The translations under genes and the position numbers were made by a program. This document shows positions 6,900-63,003 of a stretch of 64,000 nucleotides of DNA, in pieces. Each line of letters opens with the position of its first letter. Within the stretch, counting starts at the first letter, position 1. Source of the stretch: Myxococcales bacterium (lineage in GTDB: Bacteria; Myxococcota_A; Polyangia; Polyangiales; Houyiibacteriaceae). The stretch covers positions 1 to 64,000 of the forward strand of contig JAOTYL010000004.1 in assembly GCA_029861865.1 (NCBI GenBank), given 5' to 3'. The notes beneath the pieces were generated by a model. It was given only the letters and a program-made list of their open reading frames with translations, had not been told where the DNA came from and made no database searches.

Positions 6900-6952
6900 C
6901 GCCGGCCGCGCGAGGCCGATGCCGGCGGCTTGTCCGGGTGGGAGGAAATTCA

Positions 6953-7708
6953 TTGGTCCAAACGCTTCAGGGTCTGAGCTTGGAAGAGCGCGTCAGCCAG
7001 CTGCAGGAGCTGCTGGACTCGGCGGGCGAAGGGGTCCGCCAAGAGTACCAAGACCGCTTCGACATCGCGTGGATCTATCACGATAGCGCCCTCGAAGGTG
7101 TCGTCTATTCGATGGACGAGCTCAAGTCCGCGATCTACGACGACGTGGTCGCCGAAGCATCCCTGATCCCCGTGTACGACGAGATTCGAAATCACATGGG
7201 CGCGATCGAGATGATTCGCGAGATGGCCAGCCGTCGTCGGTTTTCGATCAACCTCGACGTGATCAAGAAGTTGTTCGCGCAGCTCGCGCCGGAGGAGATC
7301 GAAGGAAAAGGGCCGCCCAAATACCGTAAGGACATGCCACTTCACCGACTGTACTTCCACGAGATCGCGCAGCCTGACAAGATCAGCTATCGTATGCGCC
7401 AACTCGTACAGTGGCTCTCAGATCCTGAGACCAAGAAGACGATGCACCCGGTGCGCATGGCAAGCAGGGTGCATCACCAGTTGCTACAGATCTATCCGTT
7501 TCCGCGACACAGCGGCAAGGTGGCGCGGTTGGTGATGAACCTCATTTTGATGCGTGCCGGCTTCCCGCCGGTGGTAATTCACGCAACGGAGCGACAGCGT
7601 TATTACGAGGCACTTCGAAGTGGCGAAGACGCGACCGCTGCGCTCATCAATCAGGCGCTCGGTGCCGCGATCGAAACTGCGATTCAGTACTTCGAGGAGC
7701 ACCAGTAG
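6953..7708 (+). CDS. Fic-fold protein with a degenerate active site
   Basis: This 251-residue protein resembles Fic (filamentation induced by cAMP) enzymes, which transfer AMP or other phosphate groups to target proteins. TTG 6953 is preferred as start because GGAGGA lies 6 bases upstream; an in-frame GTG at 6938 lacks one. An inhibitory-helix-like sequence, SALEG with Glu48, occurs near the N-terminus. The fold around the active site is well kept (HPVRMASRVHHQL before it, ARLVMNLILMRAGFPPVVI after it). The signature HPFx(D/E)GNGR, however, reads YPFPRHSGK from Tyr181: the catalytic His is Tyr, the metal-binding acidic residue is Arg, and GNGR is HSGK. It is probably unable to AMPylate by the known mechanism. 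It could be a pseudoenzyme or have a changed reaction. Confidence 0.75.
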   Translation: MVQTLQGLSLEERVSQLQELLDSAGEGVRQEYQDRFDIAWIYHDSALEGVVYSMDELKSAIYDDVVAEASLIPVYDEIRNHMGAIEMIREMASRRRFSINLDVIKKLFAQLAPEEIEGKGPPKYRKDMPLHRLYFHEIAQPDKISYRMRQLVQWLSDPETKKTMHPVRMASRVHHQLLQIYPFPRHSGKVARLVMNLILMRAGFPPVVIHATERQRYYEALRSGEDATAALINQALGAAIETAIQYFEEHQ

Positions 7709-7731: not shown

Positions 7732-8311
7732 ATCTCTCTACCAAGAACCGTGGCAGCGCGGAGATGACCGCGAGCTGAGTGGCGCCATGGTCGAGCACTC
7801 GAGCCCCGTTTTCTGGTGTAATACCGCCGATCGCGACGACCGGGCAGGACACTGAGCGACACACTTCCTCGAGGTTCTTCAGGCCAACCACTGGGTCTGG
7901 GTTCTCCTTCGTGGTGGTCTCGAAAACGGGACCAAAGGCGATCCGGTCGGCGCCGTCCCGATCGGCCTCGAGTGCCTGCCGCAAGTTGTGAGTGGACACT
8001 CCGATGTCGATCTCGCCTACGATCTCGCGTGCCTCTGCGATTCGCATGTCGTCTTGACCGAGGTGCAGTCCGTCGGCCCCGATCAGCGTGGCGATGTCGG
8101 GTCGATCATTCACGACGAAGGGTACTCTTGCCTGCTTGCAGGCGGCGTTGAGCTGCTCGGCCAGGGCGAGCAAGTGCTGGTCATCGAGCGTTTTGGCTCT
8201 CAGCTGCAACGCCGCGCATCCGACGCTCAGAGCTCGTCGGGCGAGCTCTTCGGGATCGCTCGATGTCTCCGCGTCGACGATCGCGTAGAGCCGATCACTC
8301 CAACGGTTCAT
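7730..8311 (-). CDS. thiE: Thiamine-phosphate synthase
   Basis: This 193-residue TIM-barrel enzyme joins the hydroxymethylpyrimidine diphosphate and thiazole phosphate halves to make thiamine monophosphate. Family motifs seen in order: LYAIVDAE at the start, QLRAKTLDD, FVVNDRPDIA, GLHLGQDDM (Mg and diphosphate site), IGVSTHN, IAFGPVFETTTK and VAIGGITPENG. It is slightly shorter than the usual 210 residues but complete. Its ATG overlaps the last 17 bases of aguB on the same strand, so the two are probably co-transcribed. No TPP riboswitch was seen upstream. Confidence 0.92.
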   Translation of the reverse strand: MNRWSDRLYAIVDAETSSDPEELARRALSVGCAALQLRAKTLDDQHLLALAEQLNAACKQARVPFVVNDRPDIATLIGADGLHLGQDDMRIAEAREIVGEIDIGVSTHNLRQALEADRDGADRIAFGPVFETTTKENPDPVVGLKNLEEVCRSVSCPVVAIGGITPENGARVLDHGATQLAVISALPRFLVER

Positions 8312-9158
8312 TGCGGCTCAACACGCCGTATAGCTCCGGACGGCGGTCACGGAAAAAGTCCCAGTTCGAACGATACTTGCGGAGCGCGTCTCGATCGAGG
8401 GTCGCAACGGCAACGCCCTCCTCGTTGCGACCGAGCTCGGCGAGCATTTCCCCGCGGTGATCGCAGATGAACGAGCTCCCGTAGAAGGCGAGGCCAGCTT
8501 CGGTGCCGATTCGGTTGGCAGCTGCTACAGGCACTGCGTTGGCCACCGCATGGCCGACCATCACGCGCCTCCACGGGTCTTTGCTGTCTTCTCCGGGCGT
8601 GGTGGGCTCGGTTCCGATCGCGGTCGGATAAAGAAGAACCTCGGCACCTAGCAGCGCCATTGCGCGCGCCGTCTCGGGAAACCACTGGTCCCAGCAGACG
8701 CCGATCCCGAGCTCACCATGCCTCGTGCTCCAGACCCGAAAACCCGTATTCCCCGGCCGGAAGTAGAATTTCTCTTCGTAGCCTGGGCCGTCGGGGATGT
8801 GGCTCTTTCGGTAGACTCCGAGCGCGGCTCCATCGGCGTCGACCACCGCGAGGCTGTTGTAGTAAACGCCGTCCGCTTCCTCGAAGAACGACACGGGAAG
8901 GACGACGGCGAGCTCTTTCGCGAGTCGCTGCATCCGTTGGATCGTCGGGTGGCCTTCGGCGGGCGCGGCGAGGTCGAAGGCGTTCTGGTCTTTCGCCTGC
9001 GGGAAGTACCGGCCCTCGAAAAGCTCCGGCGTGAGCACGACGCGGGCGCCTCGGCCGGCAGCCTCCCGGACCAGCGCCTCGATCCTCGAAACGTTGACGT
9101 CCCGCGATGCTTGAAGCTCGCATTGGACGACTGCGATCTCGAGTCGTGCGTCGGTCAT
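8295..9158 (-). CDS. aguB: N-carbamoylputrescine amidase
   Basis: This 287-residue nitrilase-superfamily enzyme hydrolyses N-carbamoylputrescine to putrescine, ammonia and CO2. The Glu-Lys-Cys catalytic triad is visible as Glu45 (TPELF), Lys118 (YRKSHIPD) and Cys155 (GVCWDQWFPE). The IPDGPGYEEKFYFRPG segment is characteristic of AguB rather than other nitrilases. ATG 9158 is preferred over an upstream in-frame start because it overlaps the aguA stop as ATGA. With aguA it completes conversion of agmatine to putrescine. Confidence 0.93.
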   Translation of the reverse strand: MTDARLEIAVVQCELQASRDVNVSRIEALVREAAGRGARVVLTPELFEGRYFPQAKDQNAFDLAAPAEGHPTIQRMQRLAKELAVVLPVSFFEEADGVYYNSLAVVDADGAALGVYRKSHIPDGPGYEEKFYFRPGNTGFRVWSTRHGELGIGVCWDQWFPETARAMALLGAEVLLYPTAIGTEPTTPGEDSKDPWRRVMVGHAVANAVPVAAANRIGTEAGLAFYGSSFICDHRGEMLAELGRNEEGVAVATLDRDALRKYRSNWDFFRDRRPELYGVLSRNEPLE

Positions 9159-10153
9159 GGTAGCGTAGGTTGGGGTTGGGTGGCGCAGTGAAATGCCCCG
9201 CCACCCCATAGCAGGTCCCGCGCCGAAAGGCCGATGACGGCCCGGCTCGGAAACGCGGCAGCGATTTCGTCATGTGCTTCGCCGTCCTCGGGCACGCCGA
9301 AGAACGGCACCATCACCGCTTCGTTGGCGACGTAGAAGTTACAATAGTTCGCGGGGATGGGAGCGCCGTCAGGTGCGAACACTAAGCCAGGCGAAGGCAC
9401 GGTGCGCACGGTCAACCCGGCGTCCCGAAGTACGGTCTCGATCGAGCGGATCACTTCCGCGTTGGGGTCATTGGTATTGGCCCGGATGCACATCACGGTG
9501 TCGGCCGCGACGAAGCGCGCGATCATGTCCACGTGCCCATCGGTATGGTCGTGATTCAAACCGCGTTCGAGCCAGATCACGCGTTCTACGAAGAGGAGCG
9601 AACGAAGCGCGTTCTCGACGTCGGTCGGGCCAAAGCCTGGGTTTCGATTGTCGTTGAGGACGCAGGATTTCGTAGTGATGAATGTTCCGCGCCCGTCGAA
9701 CTCCAACGCACCGCCTTCGAGGACGAGGTCGTGCTCGAGACGTGCCGCGCCGAGGTGGTCGGTAAACCATCGCCCAATCTCGACGTCGAGCGCATCTTCG
9801 AACTTTCGGCCCCAACCATTGAACCGAAAACCGACAGCGCCGAGCGCCCCACTCGGAGTGTGCCCGAGAAGTGGAAGGGTATCTCGAACCCAACAGTCAC
9901 CGTAGTCGGCAGCAACGTAGTCGATCTTGTTCGAAGCTCCGATCAGATTTCGAGCCACCGCTTCGATGTCCCGGTCTCTTACGAGCAGCCGAACCTGTTC
10001 GTTCCCCGCGGTTGCGATCGCTCGGCAAAGGGCGGCGATCGTGCGTTGCGCCCCTTCGAGATTGAAGGGCCACTCCGCTGCCAGGTAAGGAAACGCGAGC
10101 CAGCAGCAGTCGTGACGCTCCCACTCGGCCGGAATTCGCAGCCGCTCTTTCAC
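9155..10153 (-). CDS. aguA: Agmatine deiminase
   Basis: This 332-residue enzyme of the pentein fold converts agmatine to N-carbamoylputrescine and ammonia. Diagnostic features: PAEWERHD near the N-terminus, YGDCWVRDT, LEGGALEFDG, the acid/base segment LNHDHTDGHVDM, and the catalytic Cys323 in GGGAFHC close to the C-terminus (usually GGGNIHC). Length is near the bacterial norm of 340-370. The stop overlaps the aguB start, giving a tightly coupled two-step polyamine module. No arginine decarboxylase is present here, so agmatine must come from elsewhere or from the medium. Confidence 0.94.
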   Translation of the reverse strand: MKERLRIPAEWERHDCCWLAFPYLAAEWPFNLEGAQRTIAALCRAIATAGNEQVRLLVRDRDIEAVARNLIGASNKIDYVAADYGDCWVRDTLPLLGHTPSGALGAVGFRFNGWGRKFEDALDVEIGRWFTDHLGAARLEHDLVLEGGALEFDGRGTFITTKSCVLNDNRNPGFGPTDVENALRSLLFVERVIWLERGLNHDHTDGHVDMIARFVAADTVMCIRANTNDPNAEVIRSIETVLRDAGLTVRTVPSPGLVFAPDGAPIPANYCNFYVANEAVMVPFFGVPEDGEAHDEIAAAFPSRAVIGLSARDLLWGGGAFHCATQPQPTLP

Positions 10154-10162
10154 CGACGAAAC

Positions 10163-11215
10163 TTACCACGCAAGAGCTTCCTGCTCACCGAATCGATCGA
10201 TCATCGTAGCGACGTGAGAGAGGAACGCTCGTTGGCGCTTCTTCAGCCCTTCGAGTTGCCGATCGTTGAGAACGGGCGCCAACGGATCAGAGGCAAGGCG
10301 CTTCGCGAAGCGTTCGAGGTCGAGCTTTCGAACCGCTTCGACCGTAGAACGGCGAAAACGCTGGACGGCTCTGAGTCGCGCTTCCATCAAACCGAGACGC
10401 TGGTCACCAAGCCAAAAGCCCGCACCGTTGTCGAGGTAGATCAGGGGACCCCCTTTTCCACGAGTCCGAACGTTAGTGAAGTTACCTCCCCAGCGATCGA
10501 CATTCTGAGTGAGATAGTCGAACACGATCATGTCGGAGAGCTCTGCGGCACGCTCCTCGGTGTCCGGCGCTATCGCAAGCGGTCGGCTGGGATCGGTCGC
10601 CTCGCGAGCGCCGGGCCTCCGATTGAGGTCGGCCCGGTAGTCCACGGGCCGCTGATAGGGGGTGATCGGGAGTGACTCTTGGACTCGTATCCATCGCTCC
10701 CATTTGCGGCCCAGCTTCAATCGCACCAACGGTTCGGGAATCCACCAAACGAAGGCACCTTGAATGGTTCCGTCTTTTTCGAACTCGAGCTCTCCGACCC
10801 GCTTGTCATCGCCGGCCGCTTTTTCGAGATCCGCCCAAGCGAACCCTCTTCCTGTCGTCGGGGGAACGCGGCCGAGACCTAGCTCCCGATCCAGGTAATA
10901 AGCGGCGACCTCGGAGTACCAGTGTGCCGCCGAGAAGCTTTGTTTGGGTTTGAAGTAGCCCTTGGTGCCGTCCGCGAGCGTGATCTTGAACGCCAGGCTC
11001 CGGCCCCCCTTGCCCTTTCTCGTCGACAGGATCTTCTCGGATCGCAGCGCATCGATTCTCGGACCGTCGGCCTCCCCTAAGAACCCAGGCAAGCTGACGG
11101 CGTCGGCACCGAGAAGGGGCCACATCAAGACCATCAGGAGCATGGGCAAGACGACGCGCGGCACGCGGCACAGAGTAGTCCGTCGGGCCCGTCGCCCGCC
11201 TCTTTCGGACCACAC
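10163..11215 (-). CDS. Secreted FAM20/Four-jointed-like kinase
   Basis: This 350-residue protein has an N-terminal signal or anchor (LPMLLMVLMWPLLGADA) and a FAM20-type kinase domain. Several blocks match animal FAM20C: the glycine/lysine strand ADGTKGYFKPKQ (Lys85/Lys89), SEVAAYYLDRELGLGRVPP with Glu102, FDYLTQNVDRWGGN with the catalytic-position Asp240, and IYLDNGAGFW with the metal-binding Asp262. A conserved FRRSTVEAVRKL helix follows. FAM20 enzymes are secretory-pathway kinases that phosphorylate proteins or sugars, so a periplasmic or extracellular kinase is inferred. The substrate is unknown. The GTG start at 11215 is uncertain because no clear ribosome binding site is present. It is divergent from the DUF1592 gene. 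Confidence 0.78.
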   Translation of the reverse strand: MWSERGGRRARRTTLCRVPRVVLPMLLMVLMWPLLGADAVSLPGFLGEADGPRIDALRSEKILSTRKGKGGRSLAFKITLADGTKGYFKPKQSFSAAHWYSEVAAYYLDRELGLGRVPPTTGRGFAWADLEKAAGDDKRVGELEFEKDGTIQGAFVWWIPEPLVRLKLGRKWERWIRVQESLPITPYQRPVDYRADLNRRPGAREATDPSRPLAIAPDTEERAAELSDMIVFDYLTQNVDRWGGNFTNVRTRGKGGPLIYLDNGAGFWLGDQRLGLMEARLRAVQRFRRSTVEAVRKLDLERFAKRLASDPLAPVLNDRQLEGLKKRQRAFLSHVATMIDRFGEQEALAW

Positions 11216-11364: not shown

Positions 11365-13038
11365 ATGCACTGGGGGTTGCGTGCGAAGTGGGCAAAAGCG
11401 TCGTGTTTGTGCGCGCTTTTCTTCATATGCGGTTGCGAGGGCGTCATCGGCGGGGCCGGGGTGGGGGGCCCCGGCCAAGCACAACAGGAGTTCATCTGCC
11501 TCGACCCGTCGGGGATCTTCCTCGGTACATCGCCGGTTCGGCGGCTCACCAACGTCGAATACGAAAACACCGTGCGTGACCTCCTCGGTGGGCAAATGCC
11601 CCCGCTTCCAGAGCAGCCAAGTGACGCCGTGCTCGAAGGCAGCTTCGAGAACGACGCAATTTCGCTTGGACCTTCGGATGTCCGAATCGCGCGATACGAA
11701 ACGGCGGCAGTCGACCTTGGAGCGCACGCGGCCGCCAGCAGCGAGGTCCTTGCGCGGATCATGCCTTGTGATCCGTCGGGCAACGCGAGCGCCTGCGGCC
11801 GCGATTTCGTCGAGAGCTTCGGACGGCGTGCATTTCGCCGACCGCTCAGCGCGGAGGAGACCGATCGCTGGGCTGCGTATTTCGAAGAGCAACGCACTGC
11901 GATCGACTTCGACGCGGCCGTGCAACTGACGGTGGCAGGGATGCTTCAGTCACCGCAGTTCCTCTACCGACTTGAAGATCAAGCCTCAGCCGGAGCGCCT
12001 GGGCAGATGGAGCTCACCCCGCACGAGCTTGCGAGCCGGCTCTCGTACTTCCTTTGGGAAAGCATGCCCGACGATCAGCTCTTCGCAGCCGCCGACAACG
12101 ACGAGCTTCAAACCGACGAGCAGATCGAGGCGCAGGCGCGGCGCATGCTCACCGACGGCCGCGCCCGCGAAACGATCCGCAATTTTCACCGTCAATGGCT
12201 CTACCTCGACCGCGTTCTCGGCGAGGACAAGCTTCCTGAGCAGTACCCGATGTGGGGAACCCAGGCGCAGCAATCCGCCCGCGAGGAGTCCCTCAAGTTC
12301 ATAGAGAACACCGTGACCGAAGGCGGGACCCTCGAGGACTTGCTCACCAGCACCGTGGCCTATCTAGACGACGTGACCGCCGAGCTTTACGGGGTCAACG
12401 CGCCAAGCGTACCGTGGGGTGCCGTCGAGCTCGACCCTACCGAGCGCGCTGGAATCCTGAGCCGCATCGCATTTCTCGCGGGCAACGCACACGAGGCCAA
12501 CGGCTCACCCCCGCTCCGCGGCGTGTTCGTGATGGACCGAATCCTTTGCGAGCCACGATTGTCGCCGCCAGCGGACGCCGATGTGTCGGTACCCGAGGCC
12601 GATCCCAACCAGGGCCCGATGACCAATCGCGACCTTTTCGAGCAGCGGGTGGCCCCGTCGACCTGCCAGGGCTGTCATGTCCGCATCGACGGATTTGGGT
12701 ACGGCTTCGAAGACTATGATGCCGCGGGTATTTTCCGCACCATGGACAATGGCCTTCCGGTCGATGCCAGTGGATACGCCGCCGGCATTGGCAACGACGC
12801 CGACTACGAAGGGGCGGTAGAGCTTCAGGGCTTGCTCGCGCAAAGCGATCTCGTTCACAACTGCGTGGTCAAACAGTGGTTCACCTATGCCTATGGGCGC
12901 ACGATGGAGCCTGCCGACACCTGCCAAGTCGAAGCCATTCAGGCGGCTTTCCTCGAAAACGGGGGCAACATCAGCGAGCTCTTGGTGGATCTGGTCACGC
13001 GGCCAGAGTTCAGGCTTCGAATTCAGGGGGGGGAGTGA
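11365..13038 (+). CDS. DUF1592-family lipoprotein with a CxxCH haem motif
   Basis: This 557-residue exported protein is probably a lipoprotein: the hydrophobic leader ends FFICGC. Blocks recognisable from the DUF1587/1592/1588/1585 multi-domain family appear in order: VRRLTNVEYENTVRDLLG, ELASRLSYFLWESMPDDQL, GILSRIAFLAGNAHEANGSPPLRGVFV and a C-terminal WFTYAYGR. A CQGCH haem-c attachment motif lies near residue 435, followed by RIDGFGYGFEDYDAAG. Such proteins are numerous in Planctomycetes and Myxococcota, nearly always beside a DUF1552 gene as here (4-base gap). The chemistry is unknown; an electron-transfer or oxidative role on secreted substrates is inferred. Confidence 0.85.
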   Translation: MHWGLRAKWAKASCLCALFFICGCEGVIGGAGVGGPGQAQQEFICLDPSGIFLGTSPVRRLTNVEYENTVRDLLGGQMPPLPEQPSDAVLEGSFENDAISLGPSDVRIARYETAAVDLGAHAAASSEVLARIMPCDPSGNASACGRDFVESFGRRAFRRPLSAEETDRWAAYFEEQRTAIDFDAAVQLTVAGMLQSPQFLYRLEDQASAGAPGQMELTPHELASRLSYFLWESMPDDQLFAAADNDELQTDEQIEAQARRMLTDGRARETIRNFHRQWLYLDRVLGEDKLPEQYPMWGTQAQQSAREESLKFIENTVTEGGTLEDLLTSTVAYLDDVTAELYGVNAPSVPWGAVELDPTERAGILSRIAFLAGNAHEANGSPPLRGVFVMDRILCEPRLSPPADADVSVPEADPNQGPMTNRDLFEQRVAPSTCQGCHVRIDGFGYGFEDYDAAGIFRTMDNGLPVDASGYAAGIGNDADYEGAVELQGLLAQSDLVHNCVVKQWFTYAYGRTMEPADTCQVEAIQAAFLENGGNISELLVDLVTRPEFRLRIQGGE

Positions 13039-13042
13039 TCGC

Positions 13043-14479
13043 ATGAGTCGAGGCCGCTACATTTTGGATCGGCGTCGCTTTCTCGCTGGCCTCGGCCTCG
13101 GCGCCGGGTCGCTCTTCCTGCCGTCACTGCGCCTCAGCGGCGCGCGTGCACAAACCAGCGCTCCGGCGCGCCTCCTCCTCTTCATCACCCCGCATGGCAC
13201 CGTTCCGGGGCGATGGCACATGCGAGAGTCAGGGCGCGATCGGGAGGAGTACGACTTCCCGCTTGCAGGGTTGAGCGAAGGTCAGTTCAGCGAAATTCTC
13301 CGGCCCCTTCACCGGCACCGGGACAACCTGTTGATCGTCGACGGCCTTGCGCGCGCCGTCACCTACGCTGAGGAATACCGGGTTTCCGAAGAGGGCTACG
13401 ACGGCGACATCAACCGTCATCATATGGCTCAAGCACACTTGCTGACCAGCAATTGGGCCTACCAGGGGGCTTCCTCGGCCCGAGGGGGTGCGCTTTCGAT
13501 CGACCAGGAGATCGGCAATGTGGTCGGGCAGCCCGGTCGCTGGAATAGCCGCGTCTACGGGTTCAATCATCAGCACGCCTACAACTACGTGGGTTCCAAC
13601 GAACCGGCCCCACGCGAGCAAAAAGCGCAGAACGCGTTCGACGACATCCTCGGCTTGGCTCCAGAGCCGACCGATCCGAACGCTCCACCGACCCGAGACG
13701 ACCTCGTTCGCGCGGCTCGGTCGAGCGCGCTCGACATGGCCAGCGAGGAGTTCGCGACGGTGCTTCCGAGGCTCAGCTCGACCGATCGAGAGAAGCTCGA
13801 GCGCCATCGGGCTTTGGTTCGCGACCTCGAGCTCGGCTTGAGCTCATCGCCAGCGGATATCATCGGCTGCGAACCGACGTTTACTGAGCAGGGCCATATC
13901 ATCGATCAGTTCTCGCGGATCTCGACGATGGCACTTGCCTGCGACCTGACACGGGTCGTCACGCTCGTGACGCAGAACATCCCGTCGCAAGAGTTTGGCG
14001 TCGATCCCGGCATCGACATGCACCAGGACATCGCCCACGAGTCGGACGAGAGCGACGGGTCCACGGCCGGCATCGAGGGAATGGTCAACTACAACCGTGT
14101 ATACGCAGAGCACTTCGCGTACCTCCTCGACCAGCTCGATTCCGTTCAAGAAGGCCCTGGATCGTTGCTCGACAATACCGCCGTCGTTTGGCTTACCGAG
14201 CTCGCGACCGGAGGTCATGATCTGCATCGTACGCCGGTCGTCATTGCGGGAGGTGGCTCGGGCTATTTCCGTCCAGGTCGGTACGTGCACTTTGCGGAAA
14301 CCCATCGAGTGGACGCAGCGAGGGGACACACCCACGATATCGGCTTCGCGCAAGAGCGATTGTTCGTGAACCTGATGCACGCCATGGGGATGACGGAGCG
14401 CCAGTTCTTTGGGTTGAATCAGGTGCAGTTCGGCTCGACGACCATCTCGCTCAGTGGTCCACTTCCGCGTCTAACCTAG
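13043..14479 (+). CDS. DUF1552-family Tat-exported protein
   Basis: This 478-residue protein has a twin-arginine leader (DRRRFLAGLGLGAGSLFLP). ATG 13043 is chosen because it begins this leader, and a GGGGGGAG purine run lies upstream. The body matches DUF1552: LLLFITPHGTVPGRW near the start, HHMAQAHLLTS, HQHAYNYV, a central helix SSTDREKLERHRALVRDLE, and VVWLTELATGGHDLHRTPVVIAGGG toward the end. This layout resembles the sulfatase/DUF1501 fold. It is the standard partner of DUF1592 proteins and is probably exported folded with a cofactor or partner. Its stop overlaps the stop of the convergent DUF2852 gene through a shared CTAG. Confidence 0.87.
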   Translation: MSRGRYILDRRRFLAGLGLGAGSLFLPSLRLSGARAQTSAPARLLLFITPHGTVPGRWHMRESGRDREEYDFPLAGLSEGQFSEILRPLHRHRDNLLIVDGLARAVTYAEEYRVSEEGYDGDINRHHMAQAHLLTSNWAYQGASSARGGALSIDQEIGNVVGQPGRWNSRVYGFNHQHAYNYVGSNEPAPREQKAQNAFDDILGLAPEPTDPNAPPTRDDLVRAARSSALDMASEEFATVLPRLSSTDREKLERHRALVRDLELGLSSSPADIIGCEPTFTEQGHIIDQFSRISTMALACDLTRVVTLVTQNIPSQEFGVDPGIDMHQDIAHESDESDGSTAGIEGMVNYNRVYAEHFAYLLDQLDSVQEGPGSLLDNTAVVWLTELATGGHDLHRTPVVIAGGGSGYFRPGRYVHFAETHRVDAARGHTHDIGFAQERLFVNLMHAMGMTERQFFGLNQVQFGSTTISLSGPLPRLT

Positions 14480-47646: not shown

Positions 47647-48983
47647 TCGCCCCTCGGTCGAAACAGTCGTTCCACGGTTGCCCGTGCATCTTTCGTGGTC
47701 ATCAGGATCACGCGGTCGCCAGGGTGCACGATGTCCTTGCCACGTGGGATGATCACGTCGTCCCCATGGACGATCGCGGCCAGCAGAGAGCCGCGCGGCA
47801 GGTTCATCCGATGCAGCGGCTTGTTGACCGCGCGGCATTTGGGGCTTGCCGTCAGCTCGACCACCTCGGCCTGACCGTTTTCTAGGACTGTCAAACTATG
47901 GATGCCGCCGCCCCGCGAGAATCTCAAAATCTGGTCCGATGCGACGGTTCGCGGCGACAGGACGATGTCGATCCCGAGTTGTCGATAGATCGACGTGTAG
48001 TCGGCACGTTGGACGATCGTTGCCGTCCTCTTGCATCCCGCACGTTGCGCGAGCAGCGCCGCCATCAGGTTGATTTCGTCGGCGCGGGTGACGGCGGCAA
48101 AGAGATCGTAGGTTCCGACCTCTTCTTCCTCGAGGAGTGCGCCATCGGTCCCGTCACCGTGCACCACCTGTACGCCTTGGAACTCGCCGCTGATCTCCTC
48201 AGCAACGGCGAGATCGCTCTCGATCATCATGACGGTGGCTTCTTGCTGAAGGAGCTCGCGGGCCAACGCTTTGCCGACGACACCGCCTCCCACGATACAA
48301 ACGCGCCTAGCCTCGCGCTCTTTGCTGAACAGACGCTCGGCCGCGAGCACGCCTTCGGGCCGGCCGATCAGATATACGCGGTCGCCCTTTACCAAGACGT
48401 CCGCCCCACCTGGCACGAACAGATCGCCGTCGCGAACGACCGCGCTCACCAGTGTATGAGGCGGCAGCTCGACTGCTGACAACGGCTTGTTGAGCACGCG
48501 CGAATCACCGAGGTCGATCTGCACGAGCTCGACCCTCTCTTGTGCGAGGTCGACGACATCAGACGCGCCGTGTGATCTCGCGATGCGGCTGAGCTCTTGG
48601 GCGACGAGAACGCGCGGATTGATCACCACATCGACCCCGAGTAGTCCGTAGCGAATACCTTCGGTCCATCCGGACCAGGCCGTGCCCTGCACGCGCGCAA
48701 CCACGTGTTTGGCGCCCAGTTGTTTCGCTGCGAGCGCAGCGATCAAGTTCATTTCATCGTGGTCGGTGACTGCAACGACCAGGTCCCCACGGGCGACCCC
48801 CGCAACCTTCAGCAGCTTTTCGCTGGCGCCGTAGCCCACGATCGAAGCGACATCGTAGTGCTCCTCGGCGTACCGGACGGCCTTGCGGCTCGAGTCCACG
48901 GCAACGATGTCATGCCCCTCCTTGTCGAGGACGCTCAGCAAATGGCGCCCGACTTCCCCTAGGCCTATCACGACGATGTTCAT
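47643..48983 (-). CDS. trkA: TrkA-type potassium uptake regulator
   Basis: This 446-residue cytoplasmic regulator has two RCK modules, each a Rossmann RCK_N domain plus RCK_C domain. The first begins NIVVIGLGEVGRHLLSVLDKEGHDIVAVD. The second begins near residue 225 with RVCIVGGGVVGKALARELLQQ. ATG 48983 gives the nucleotide-binding strand at residue 2 and overlaps the antiporter stop as ATGA. Binding of NAD(H) or adenine nucleotides gates TrkH in known systems. Confidence 0.94.
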   Translation of the reverse strand: MNIVVIGLGEVGRHLLSVLDKEGHDIVAVDSSRKAVRYAEEHYDVASIVGYGASEKLLKVAGVARGDLVVAVTDHDEMNLIAALAAKQLGAKHVVARVQGTAWSGWTEGIRYGLLGVDVVINPRVLVAQELSRIARSHGASDVVDLAQERVELVQIDLGDSRVLNKPLSAVELPPHTLVSAVVRDGDLFVPGGADVLVKGDRVYLIGRPEGVLAAERLFSKEREARRVCIVGGGVVGKALARELLQQEATVMMIESDLAVAEEISGEFQGVQVVHGDGTDGALLEEEEVGTYDLFAAVTRADEINLMAALLAQRAGCKRTATIVQRADYTSIYRQLGIDIVLSPRTVASDQILRFSRGGGIHSLTVLENGQAEVVELTASPKCRAVNKPLHRMNLPRGSLLAAIVHGDDVIIPRGKDIVHPGDRVILMTTKDARATVERLFRPRGE

Positions 48984-50347
48984 CTCGATGTTGCTCCAAG
49001 GGACGTATCCGTGTCCTTCAGCTCGCGTTGCAGATCGCCCTGATCGACCAGCAAACCTCTCAATAGACGGGGCGCCAAGAGGTCGTTCAAGATGATCGAG
49101 CACAGAATGACCGAGTAGGCGATCTCGACGGCAGATCCCTCGTACACCAAACGAAACGACACCGCCATCGCAAGGGTGACGTCGCCGTGTGCGAGAAGAC
49201 CGCGAAAGAGATCCTTGCGTAGGCTCGTCCCCCAACCCGCGATGACGCTGGCAAGCCACTTAGCGCCGGTGCGCGCCGCAACGAAAGCCGCGAACGCAAT
49301 CAGGGTCGGGATCAACGGAGACGGGGTCCAAAGCGCACCCGCGAAGATCAAGAGGACGATCGTCATCGGCCGTTCGGTAGACTCGAGGGTGGAGTGCAAG
49401 AGCTGCCCGCCTCGCGCTACGTTGACCAGCACGAAACCCATCCAGAGGTTCACTGCCAACGGTGACAGCTCGAGGACGTACGCACCGCCCGATGCGAAGG
49501 CGATGATTCCGAGGAGCGCCAGAAATCGAGAGTTGTCGGACTCGTCGCCGGCCAAAAAGATCGAGAACAGCAGCCCGAGTGCTGCTCCCAGGCCGACCGT
49601 GACCCACGCCCAAGTCGACGCCGAATAGGTGGTCGCCTCGGGCGCATTCTCGTGAAAGACACAAAAAATCAGGCCGAACACGAGGATGACGGCGATGTCA
49701 CCGAGCCTCGTCCCATTGCGCAAGAGCGGAGCCAGGCGGCCGCTGATTTCGTATCGACGCGCGAGGAGGTCGAAGGGCTCCGAAGAGTCGGCGGCCGCGA
49801 AGCACGCGAGGGCGGCGGCGCACAGCGCGGACTCCCGCCTCGTGGTTTCGAGCAATAGCCCACTCTCGAACAAGTAGTACGCGCCAAAACCAACGGCGAG
49901 CCCCGGCAGTAGGTGGTGCAAGAACACGACTCGCCAAGTCGCTGGGTCGAGCTTCTGCAAGCTTGCAAACTCGAAGTCGGTTCCTCGCAAGAGACCCACC
50001 CAGCCGGCAGCGAGGGCGATGATCGGCAATAGGCCCGTCAGGTCATCGAACGCACCGATCGCAGGGAAGAGTGGACCCAGCATCACTCCGAGAAGCAGGT
50101 ACTCCACTCCACTCACGACGAGGAATCGATGTTGCAGTCGCTCGACGACGCTGTGGGCCAGCACGTACGCAACGCCGATGACTAGAACCAGCAACACTAC
50201 GGTTCCGAGCTCGCCTGCGCCTCCAGCTTGTTCGGCGCCGCTCGCAGCAGACGCAACGTCCGGTAGCCCGGCGAAAACGCCCAGTGCCCCCACGCCGCCG
50301 CTGATGATGCCCCCACGCCGCCGCCCCACCTCTGCCTTCCCGGCCAT
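48980..50347 (-). CDS. CPA-type (Na+/H+ exchanger-like) antiporter
   Basis: This 455-residue inner-membrane protein starts with a Gly/Arg-rich N-terminus and has about 12 helices. FLVVSGVEYLLLGVMLGPLFPAIG resembles the start of cation:proton antiporters, and NGTRLGDIAVILVFGLIFCVF and LLAHGDVTLAMAVSFRLVYEG resemble later core helices. Classification within the CPA superfamily is uncertain, and the ion may be sodium or potassium. First structural gene of the Trk/Kef operon, 77 bases downstream of tetR; trkA overlaps its stop. Confidence 0.78.
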   Translation of the reverse strand: MAGKAEVGRRRGGIISGGVGALGVFAGLPDVASAASGAEQAGGAGELGTVVLLVLVIGVAYVLAHSVVERLQHRFLVVSGVEYLLLGVMLGPLFPAIGAFDDLTGLLPIIALAAGWVGLLRGTDFEFASLQKLDPATWRVVFLHHLLPGLAVGFGAYYLFESGLLLETTRRESALCAAALACFAAADSSEPFDLLARRYEISGRLAPLLRNGTRLGDIAVILVFGLIFCVFHENAPEATTYSASTWAWVTVGLGAALGLLFSIFLAGDESDNSRFLALLGIIAFASGGAYVLELSPLAVNLWMGFVLVNVARGGQLLHSTLESTERPMTIVLLIFAGALWTPSPLIPTLIAFAAFVAARTGAKWLASVIAGWGTSLRKDLFRGLLAHGDVTLAMAVSFRLVYEGSAVEIAYSVILCSIILNDLLAPRLLRGLLVDQGDLQRELKDTDTSLGATSR

Positions 50348-60633: not shown

Positions 60634-61956
60634 ATGCTCGATCTGCGCTACGCGAGCGAGAACCTAGCCGATGTCAAAGCTGCGTTGGCGCGCCGCGGGT
60701 TTGACGATGTTGCGCTTCTCGACCGGCTCGGGTCCCTTGCCGAAGAGCGCCGGGAAATCATCACGCAAGTCGAAGCGCTTCGCCAAGAGCGAAACGCCGC
60801 CAGCGAAGCGATGGCGAAGGTGGCTGACAAAAAGTCCGAGGAGTTTCAGGCCAAGCGCGACGAGCTACGGGCGCTCGGCGACGAGATCAAAGCAGGCGAG
60901 GCCCGCCAAGCCGAGGTTGCCGAAGAGCTCGAGGGGATCCTCCTGAACCTTCCAAATCTCCCACACCCCGAAACCCCGAACGGCCTGAGCGAGGACGACA
61001 ACGTCGAGATGCGCGTCTGGGGCCAGAAGCCGTCATTCGACTTCGAGATGCGCGATCATGTCGAGGTCGGCGTCGGCCTCGGCATCCTCGACTTCGAGCG
61101 CGCCGCAAAGCTAAGCGGATCGCGGTTCGTCGTCTTGATGGGAGCCGGGGCTCGGCTCGAACGCGCCCTGTTGCAGTTCATGCTCGACGTTCACACCACC
61201 GAGCACGGCTACCGAGAGGTGTGGCCCCCGGTACTCGTGAAAGACAGCGCGATGCTCGGAACGGGCCAACTCCCGAAGTTTGCAAAGGACTCGTTTCGGA
61301 TGGCGAAAGAAGAGGAATGGGAGGCCCAGGCCGAGGCGCAGGGGCACGATCTCTATCTCGTACCGACCGCCGAGGTACCCCTCACCAATCTGCACGCCGA
61401 CGAAATTCTCGCGGAAGCGGACCTGCCGGTCGCCTACACCGGGTACACGGCATGCTTTCGAAGTGAGGCGGGCAGCTATGGCAAAGACACGCGGGGCATG
61501 ATCCGTGTGCACCAGTTCGACAAGGTCGAGCTGGTTCGATTCTGCCATCCAGACCACGGCGATCGCGAGCTCGACATCCTCACCGGGCACGCCGAGTCGA
61601 TTCTGCAAAAGCTCGAGCTCCACTATCGAGTCGTCCAACTCTGTGCCGGCGACATGGGCTTTGCTGCGCAAAAATCCTACGACCTCGAGGTGTGGCTTCC
61701 TGCTCAAGACACCTACCGTGAGATTTCGAGCTGTTCTTGGTTTGGTGACTTTCAGGCTCGCCGCATGAAGGCGCGCTTCCGGCCCGAACAAAAGGGCAAG
61801 CCTCGGCTCCTTCATACGCTCAATGGATCGGGCCTCGCCATTGGCCGAACGCTCGTCGCGATTCTCGAACAAAATCAGCAGGCCGATGGAAGCGTCTCGG
61901 TGCCAAAGGCTCTGCGGCCGTACATGGGTGGCCTCGAGAGGATCACCGCCGCATAG
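60634..61956 (+). CDS. serS: Seryl-tRNA synthetase
   Basis: This 440-residue class II synthetase charges tRNA-Ser. ATG 60634 gives the conserved N-terminus [18 protein letters not shown]. An antiparallel coiled coil (about residues 28-105) contacts the tRNA extra arm. Motif 1 lies near [10 protein letters not shown], motif 2 is [22 protein letters not shown]-like, and motif 3 is [26 protein letters not shown] binds serine. Immediately followed by murB with no gap. Confidence 0.96.
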
Positions 61957-63003
61957 ATGACCGACTTCGAGATTCAACGAGACGTGCCCCTGGCTCCGCT
62001 CACCACTTTCGAGCTCGGGGGGCCGGCACGGTTCTTCGTTCGTGCCGGAGGCACGGAGACCCTCGTTGCGGCGCTTCGTTGGGCTCGCGAAGAGGGTCAC
62101 GGGGCGGCCATTCTCGGCGGCGGCTCGAATTTGATCGTACCCGACGAAGGCTACTCGGGTCTCGTGATCCACATGGCCCTTGGTGACATCGATTTTGAAG
62201 ACAGTGGGAGGGTCGAGGTTGGTGCGGGCGTTCCGTGGGAGGTCGTCGTCGACGGAGCAGTGACCCGCGACTGGGCAGGCCTCGAGTGCCTGACCGGCAT
62301 TCCCGGCTCGACCGGGGCCACACCGATTCAGAACGTCGGCGCGTACGGCCAAGAGGTCGCCGAGGTGATCGAACGCGTCCTGGTGGTCGACCGGGAAAGC
62401 CTCGTGCTCGGGGAGCTCGCTCCCGGAACCTGTGAGTTCGGCTACCGCGACAGCATGTTCAAGCGAGAGCCCGAGCGGTATGTCGTCGTCGGCGTGCACT
62501 TTGCGCTTCGCCCCGGTGGCGCAGGAACCGTTCGCTATGGCGAGCTCGAAAAGCAAGTTCGACCAAGCGCGTCGCTCGGCGAAATTCGAAACGCCGTCCT
62601 CGACCTCCGACGCAAAAAGTCGATGGTGATCGATCCCGACGATCCGAATCACCGGAGCGCAGGATCGTTCTTCCTGAATCCGGTCGTCACGAGGACGGAA
62701 GCCGACCATGTCGCGGCGCTTGCTGTGGCTGAAGGGCTAGTTCCTAGCATCGCTGCGGTCCCCAGTTATCCCACGCCAACCGGTGAGGTGAAGCTCGCGG
62801 CCGGTTGGCTGATCGAGAAGTCCGGCATCGCCAAAGGCACGCGCCGCGGAGCGGTCGGGATATCGAGCAATCACGCCCTAGCGTTGGTGCACCACGGCGG
62901 AGGCACTACCGCTGAGCTACTCGCCTTCGCAGACGAAGTTCGCGCGCGCGTGGCAGACCGCTTTGGCGTTCAGCTGAAGCGCGAGCCCAGGCTCTTGGTC
63001 TAG
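61957..63003 (+). CDS. murB: UDP-N-acetylenolpyruvoylglucosamine reductase
   Basis: This 348-residue FAD enzyme makes UDP-N-acetylmuramate in peptidoglycan synthesis. The ATG abuts the serS stop. TTFELGGPARFFVR starts the FAD domain, ILGGGSNLIVPDEGYSGLVI binds flavin, GIPGSTGATPIQNVGAYGQE is the core motif, and GYRDSMFKRE contains the conserved Tyr typical of type I MurB. NHRSAGSFFLNP supplies the catalytic Ser, and a Glu near the C-terminus lies in PTPTGEVKLAAGWLIE. Confidence 0.95.
   Translation: MTDFEIQRDVPLAPLTTFELGGPARFFVRAGGTETLVAALRWAREEGHGAAILGGGSNLIVPDEGYSGLVIHMALGDIDFEDSGRVEVGAGVPWEVVVDGAVTRDWAGLECLTGIPGSTGATPIQNVGAYGQEVAEVIERVLVVDRESLVLGELAPGTCEFGYRDSMFKREPERYVVVGVHFALRPGGAGTVRYGELEKQVRPSASLGEIRNAVLDLRRKKSMVIDPDDPNHRSAGSFFLNPVVTRTEADHVAALAVAEGLVPSIAAVPSYPTPTGEVKLAAGWLIEKSGIAKGTRRGAVGISSNHALALVHHGGGTTAELLAFADEVRARVADRFGVQLKREPRLLV

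Follow-up and report, generated by a model that had tools for sequence, protein, structure and literature searches.

Whether the FAM20 kinases of the animal secretory pathway have close relatives in bacteria, and what such relatives might do there, is the question raised by a gene at positions 10163-11215 of the window, by which we mean the whole stretch of 64,000 nucleotides analysed here (positions 1 to 64,000 of Myxococcales contig JAOTYL010000004.1). In the portions available to us, the published papers cite FAM20 when illustrating clusters confined to eukaryotes or Metazoa (PMC9758233), report its conservation in animals ranging from sponges to mammals (PMC7948968), and cluster Legionella families with FAM20/CotH (PMC9758233). 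No paper on bacterial Fam20 homologues closer than the CotH and Legionella families was found in the open-licence PMC literature, as far as its accessible text goes; bacterial entries may already stand unremarked under PF06702.

The gene and its predicted product

The gene (P0001) runs on the minus strand from a GTG start at 11215 to a stop at 10163, and its 350 codons specify a protein of 350 aa. Alternative starts can be read from the sequence at 11164 (GTG) and 11143 (ATG), and the translation start is to that extent uncertain. A plus-strand ORF that overlaps the gene (9533-10675) is taken here as a high-GC shadow ORF. The initial annotation had described the product as a secreted FAM20-family kinase with four blocks of FAM20C and two catalytic Asp residues. 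All four blocks are present, in the order given (F88-K89-P90; S101-EVAAYYLDRELGLGRVPP-119; F232-DYLTQNVDR-241; Y260-LDNGAGF-267), as are the Asp residues at 240 and 262. As regards secretion, a putative N-terminal export signal was recognized at residues 18-40 (11096-11164, minus strand), with the hydrophobic core VVLPMLLMVLMWPLLGA and a hydrophobic window mean of 2.47 in a crude Kyte-Doolittle scan. Judging by eye, a signal peptidase I site is likely after ADA; the start of the protein is signal-peptide-like and has no lipobox, and there are no cysteines after residue 16. The genome contains two Fam20-lineage copies. The second is a divergent gene, also with a signal-peptide-like start (G000:C8:552755-553582; L002, L093), which together with a copy from G012 makes up a separate long-branched clade.

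Sequence and fold relationship to Fam20

The Pfam Fam20C model (PF06702) matches the window protein with 42.4 bits (E 8.5e-11), above its cut-off of 26.8, and a phmmer search with the protein finds human FAM20C at E 4e-12; such scores lie well outside what chance would give. A bacterial profile, referred to as A1, was built from the Pfam-model matches in the phylum together with six loci from a contig scan, in which a single-sequence query was used that reaches close relatives only; these six loci are titled Myxococcales (3), Deltaproteobacteria, Proteobacteria and uncultured bacterium. Removal of near-copies (at least 97% identity) reduced the input of A1 from 37 to 33 rows. Against the PDB, A1 matches six distinct animal Fam20 sequences with E values from 2e-40 to 1.1e-29, the best being human FAM20C (E 2e-40, profile positions 8-300), whereas the best non-Fam20 chain reaches only 0.18, and PI4KII 0.35. 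In the other direction, PF06702 is matched by all 33 members of A1 at E ≤ 0.1.

The predicted structure leads to the same relatives. The AlphaFold2 model of the window protein (pLDDT 88.5, pTM 0.85, with residues 1-37 at pLDDT <50) was compared by VIA-align with Fam20 crystal structures, giving Z scores of 24.5-26.4 with rmsd of 2.6-3.9 Å over 269-281 aligned residues, as against 16.7 for PI4KII, 15.5 for CtkA, 11.9 for HipA and 11.7 for CotH. A model of one relative (L009, from the group designated clade B below) has a pLDDT of 91.8 and a Z score of 27.0 to hydra Fam20, with 28% identity over 273 residues. Both the profile comparison, in which the Pfam model scored above its cut-off and A1 led to human FAM20C, and the fold comparison, in which the predicted structure was nearest Fam20 and no closer fold devoid of an ATP site around D240/D262 was seen, thus came out in favor of the initial annotation. 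By sequence and predicted fold, the closest known relatives of the window protein are FAM20.

Active site

Site counts were taken from an alignment of 48 rows (43 bacterial and 5 animal); in FAM20C numbering, human equals mouse + 5, as derived from D453/D458. All 43 bacterial rows retain residues K285, E311, D451, N456, D458, R459 and D478 of human FAM20C. In the window protein (codons on the minus strand), the equivalent of K285, the lysine that contacts the ATP phosphates (role from PMC4421793), is K89 (10949-10951); that of the helix-C glutamate E311 is E102 (10910-10912), which lies in helix 99-112 of the model; the catalytic Asp, D458 in human and D453 in mouse, is D240 (10496-10498), and the DFG-like metal-binding Asp D478 is D262 (10430-10432). 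Each of these four is found in 43/43 bacterial sequences. The two aspartates are also those whose mutation is reported to inactivate the animal enzyme, as D453G in mouse FAM20C (PMC3416761) and D478A in human FAM20C (PMC4421793). Of the mouse FAM20C sites mutated in Raine syndrome, G261, D446 and R544 (PMC3416761), the first is G in 42/43 bacterial rows, the second D in 43/43 and the third R in 38/43.

A different picture emerges for the metal site. According to the available text of PMC4421793, a Fam20-specific loop between K-beta3 and K-alpha3 brings in E306, which coordinates Mn and is required for activity, while FAM20A, a pseudokinase, has Gln at this site. Animal Fam20 kinases have this loop, of 13 residues, whereas the bacterial family is without it: loop and metal ligand are absent in 43/43 bacterial sequences, and the spacing from the K to the E is 13 residues in 42 bacterial rows and 11 in one, as compared with 26 in all four animal rows covering the region. 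All 43 bacterial sequences have an Asn within the catalytic loop, at a distance after the catalytic Asp of 8 residues for the window protein, 6 for clade B and 10-12 for clade D, whose Asn is shifted by two alignment columns. The Asn of the window protein is N248 (10472-10474, minus strand), which directly precedes strand 249-252 of the model. The catalytic-loop Asn of ordinary kinases also directly precedes a strand. In the human, zebrafish, hydra and FAM20A rows no Asn is aligned at this position; C. elegans has an Asn eight residues after the Asp. Judging from the alignment and the model, N248 is probably a metal ligand that replaces E306 of Fam20. The metal pair of the bacterial enzymes would be the ordinary Asn/Asp, and it is in animals that the Asn would have been swapped for E306.

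Other features of the animal enzymes are also missing. The sugar-binding residues of hydra Fam20 include H301 and K321 (PMC5865150), and these Fam20B-type sugar contacts are not kept: DRH is replaced by DR[WYF] in 43/43 bacterial rows, and at the position of K321, 35/43 have A and none has K. The four disulfides of hydra Fam20/Fam20C are absent from the window protein. Because the E306 loop, the four disulfides and the Fam20B sugar-binding residues are all lacking, we place the protein in a lineage that is sister to FAM20 and whose metal site differs. The designation as a FAM20-family kinase therefore stands as regards closest relatives and catalytic residues, and has to be given up as regards FAM20 proper.

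Distribution and diversity of the bacterial family

The window gene is one of a widespread family and not a single odd gene. Among 377 genomes of the phylum, the Pfam Fam20C model matched 42 at E ≤ 0.001, with 31 above the cut-off. With A1, a match at E ≤ 1e-5 was obtained in 111 of the same 377 genomes (a count that takes in the genomes that supplied A1), distributed over 72 of 234 genera. The Pfam model found no match in 14 named control genomes; tblastn of plasmids and phages with the window protein gave nothing at E ≤ 0.01, and PADLOC gave E 0.038 at best. A BFVD fold search had a weak best E of 7.7e-6, with no Fam20-like name among the best 50 matches listed. The A1 scan of viral contigs produced a single short match, 43 residues long and with 47% identity, which covers the catalytic loop and is encoded on a 68.8 kb IMG/VR viral contig (L125:3001-3117).

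Across 45 loci, a crude scan recorded a hydrophobic window mean of at least 1.5 ahead of the kinase in 37, and a lipobox-like string in 22, some of these strings being surely spurious. A distinct architecture is seen in clade D (L098-L103 and L109-L111), whose proteins are about 400-1080 aa long, L099 and L111 running off the contig end. Inspected by eye, most of them open at the N-terminus with CxxC pairs resembling a zinc ribbon, followed by a long stretch of low complexity, then a hydrophobic segment and a C-terminal kinase, which is the domain order of a type II membrane protein. For one member of the clade, L102, Pfam gave no match at E ≤ 0.001.

Gene neighborhood

Nine nucleotides downstream of the kinase gene is an agmatine deiminase-like gene (9155-10153, minus strand; Pfam PAD_porph 2e-95), for which the best NCBIfam models are agmatine deiminases, below their cut-offs; it is probably an operon partner of the kinase gene. 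N-carbamoylputrescine amidase (AguB) is encoded at 8295-9209, also on the minus strand (TIGR03381, 420.4 bits, cut-off 410.25). In 15 of the 45 loci, representing 14 genomes (L005 and L077 belong to one genome), the next co-directional gene is a deiminase gene; these loci come from families f1, f3 and f7 and include the unplaced L004; in one f5 genome (G341) a single gene intervenes between the kinase and deiminase genes.

In other lineages the neighbors are of a different kind. A gene for a NAGPA (PF09992) phosphodiester glycosidase is head-to-head with the kinase gene in 9/45 loci. In a set of 23 hand-chosen genomes, 18 have a NAGPA match and 12 the head-to-head arrangement, namely 6/6 of f4, 5/5 of f5 and G206 of f1; examples of the arrangement are L087:9167-10405, L106:7490-8674 and L081:8229-9842, among others. 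No NAGPA match was obtained in the genome that contains the window. A polysaccharide deacetylase gene is head-to-head with the kinase gene in two of three clade B loci (L090:5853-7358, L092:5610-6641), an M23 peptidase is next to or near the kinase at two loci, and PpiC foldase lipoproteins occur at two. With the reservation that related genomes are not independent in these counts, the neighbors indicate the cell envelope, several of them more specifically glycans.

The window has some further features of its own. Adjoining DUF1592-group and DUF1552 proteins are encoded at 11365-14479, a pair that is associated with Planctomycetes-type genomes. A Fic-domain protein (PF02661, 4.2e-12) is found at 6938-7708, between thioredoxin-like and thiamine monophosphate synthase genes, and the candidate ORFs 48980-50347 (455 aa) and 61111-62709 (532 aa) have no Pfam match at 1e-5.

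Possible function

On the strength of its sequence and modeled structure, we consider it fairly likely that the window gene encodes a Fam20-lineage kinase that is exported and located in the envelope. In such an enzyme K89 and E102 would secure the phosphates of the nucleotide, the metal would be bound by N248 and D262 in place of the E306/D478 pair of animals, and D240 would be the catalytic base, so that a phosphate from ATP or a similar donor would be transferred to a hydroxyl outside the cytoplasm. Against this reading stand the immediate partners of the window gene, which are agmatine-pathway genes, the lack of a NAGPA match in its genome, the missing hydra sugar contacts and the question of the donor: to our knowledge, neither the periplasm nor the surface of Gram-negative cells is known to hold ATP. 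The family thereby raises the puzzle of which donor would feed a kinase outside the Gram-negative cytoplasm.

As for the acceptor, a cell-envelope glycan or glycopeptide appears likelier than exported proteins, and we would tentatively give it somewhat less than an even chance. It is favored because basal animal Fam20s are sugar kinases, and because relatives of the window gene adjoin genes for phosphodiester glycosidases, polysaccharide deacetylases or M23 peptidases. According to PMC5865150, Fam20 of hydra and sponge phosphorylates Gal-Xyl but none of the proteins that were tried as substrates. Since the hydra contacts H301 and K321 are not kept, any glycan acceptor must be a different one.

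An enzyme that phosphorylates exported proteins, as Fam20C does, and not glycans, is possible and rather unlikely. The fold and the catalytic residues are the same, the best single PDB sequence match is FAM20C, which is a protein kinase, and the bacterial rows have no Lys at the K321 site of Fam20B; however, the sugar kinase activity of basal animal Fam20s, as well as neighbors that in several lineages act on glycans or peptidoglycan, argue in the opposite direction. A pseudokinase, or a different chemistry such as AMP transfer or regulation through ATP binding, is improbable. ATP is not expected outside the cytoplasm, and the bacterial proteins are without E306, whose replacement accompanies the inactivity of FAM20A (PMC4421793), but the catalytic-loop Asn is present in 43/43 sequences, and the K, the E and both Asp residues are invariant, as selection on catalysis predicts. 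A HipA/CtkA/PI4K-like or CotH-like kinase with a superficial resemblance to Fam20 can be regarded as very improbable, since the catalytic-loop Asn, as in canonical kinases, and weak HipA_2 matches in 4 of the 33 A1 members are set against Z scores of 24.5-26.4 for Fam20 versus 16.7 or less for the other four folds, and profile E values of 2e-40 versus 0.18 or more outside Fam20.

Relationship to the animal enzymes

In the tree, clade B (family f2, 7 rows) groups with the animals with support 98/87. Two Cys columns are C in 7/7 clade B and 5/5 animal rows, and in 0 and 1 of the 36 other bacterial rows; the clade B pair matches Cys341-Cys400 of hydra Fam20, which form a disulfide (PMC5865150). 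When these two columns are left out the support for animals with clade B is 89/63, and when clades D and P are removed as well it is 92/66. The AU tests on the placement of the animals are not decisive: they keep A+B without animals (p 0.051), animals+A (0.099) and animals+E (0.0505), and the placements that they reject are animals+D (0.011) and animals+paralog P (0.004). The animals sit on a long branch (2.1), and the residue composition of their rows deviates. TIGR03843 was tried as an outgroup and rejected, as the places compared turned out to be the Fam20-like genes themselves. For this reason, and because the HipA_2 loci were unused, the tree is unrooted, with clade D as a drawing root only; Four-jointed, GASK1 and protist sequences were left out of it.

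The bacterial family may sit near the origin of the animal Fam20 enzymes. As the tree is unrooted and contains no other eukaryotic kin, we treat a myxobacterial descent of animal Fam20 as possible and not more. A specific version, which we hold to be doubtful, is that animal Fam20 descend from a clade B-type myxobacterial envelope lipoprotein kinase acquired by an ancestor of animals; in the animal line the E306 loop would then have been added and the catalytic-loop Asn given up, with one Cys pair retained from the bacterial protein. If this were true, the bacterial enzymes would serve as present-day models of the enzyme from which phosphorylation in the secretory pathway arose. The reverse, a horizontal transfer of the gene from an animal to bacteria, could appeal to the same grouping of animals and clade B, but it is hardly credible, as the bacterial diversity (several deep clades, 72/234 genera) is far wider than that of the five sampled animal chains, and the animal loop is missing from all the bacterial sequences. 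With its almost complete Fam20 anatomy, the large bacterial family provides an outgroup for the origin of the odd metal site of animals, and a route to asking where secretory-pathway kinases arose.

Comparison with known systems

The CotH spore-coat kinases are, like the window protein, bacterial and of PKL fold, and in the accessible text of PMC7821199 and PMC12189002 CotH is a bacterial kinase distantly related to Fam20C. Their fold is far more distant from the window protein (Z 11.7) than that of Fam20, no CotH model occurs among the Pfam matches of the protein at E ≤ 10, and the DFG-like motif present in the window protein is, according to the part of PMC12189002 available, lacking in CotH. 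PI4K type II, CtkA and HipA also have an atypical kinase fold, with a sequence match to A1 that is marginal or absent. A catalytic-loop Asn is found in these three families too, which stand outside the alignment of the bacterial Fam20-lineage set. TIGR03843 (SCO1664 family) has a weak similarity to residues 221-333 of the window protein (E 0.0042, 16.5 bits versus a cut-off of 172.4). FAM198/GASK1 (PF15051) matches 25 of the 33 A1 members at E ≤ 0.1, with 4.7e-6 as the best value, while the window protein itself scores 14.1, under the cut-off of 25. With the animal Fam20 proteins, which comprise the Golgi casein kinase FAM20C, the xylosylkinase FAM20B/hydra Fam20 and the pseudokinase FAM20A, the window protein has in common the fold, the residues equivalent to K285, E311, D458 and D478, and the Raine sites; for the window protein, export is a prediction from the crude scan of its N-terminus.
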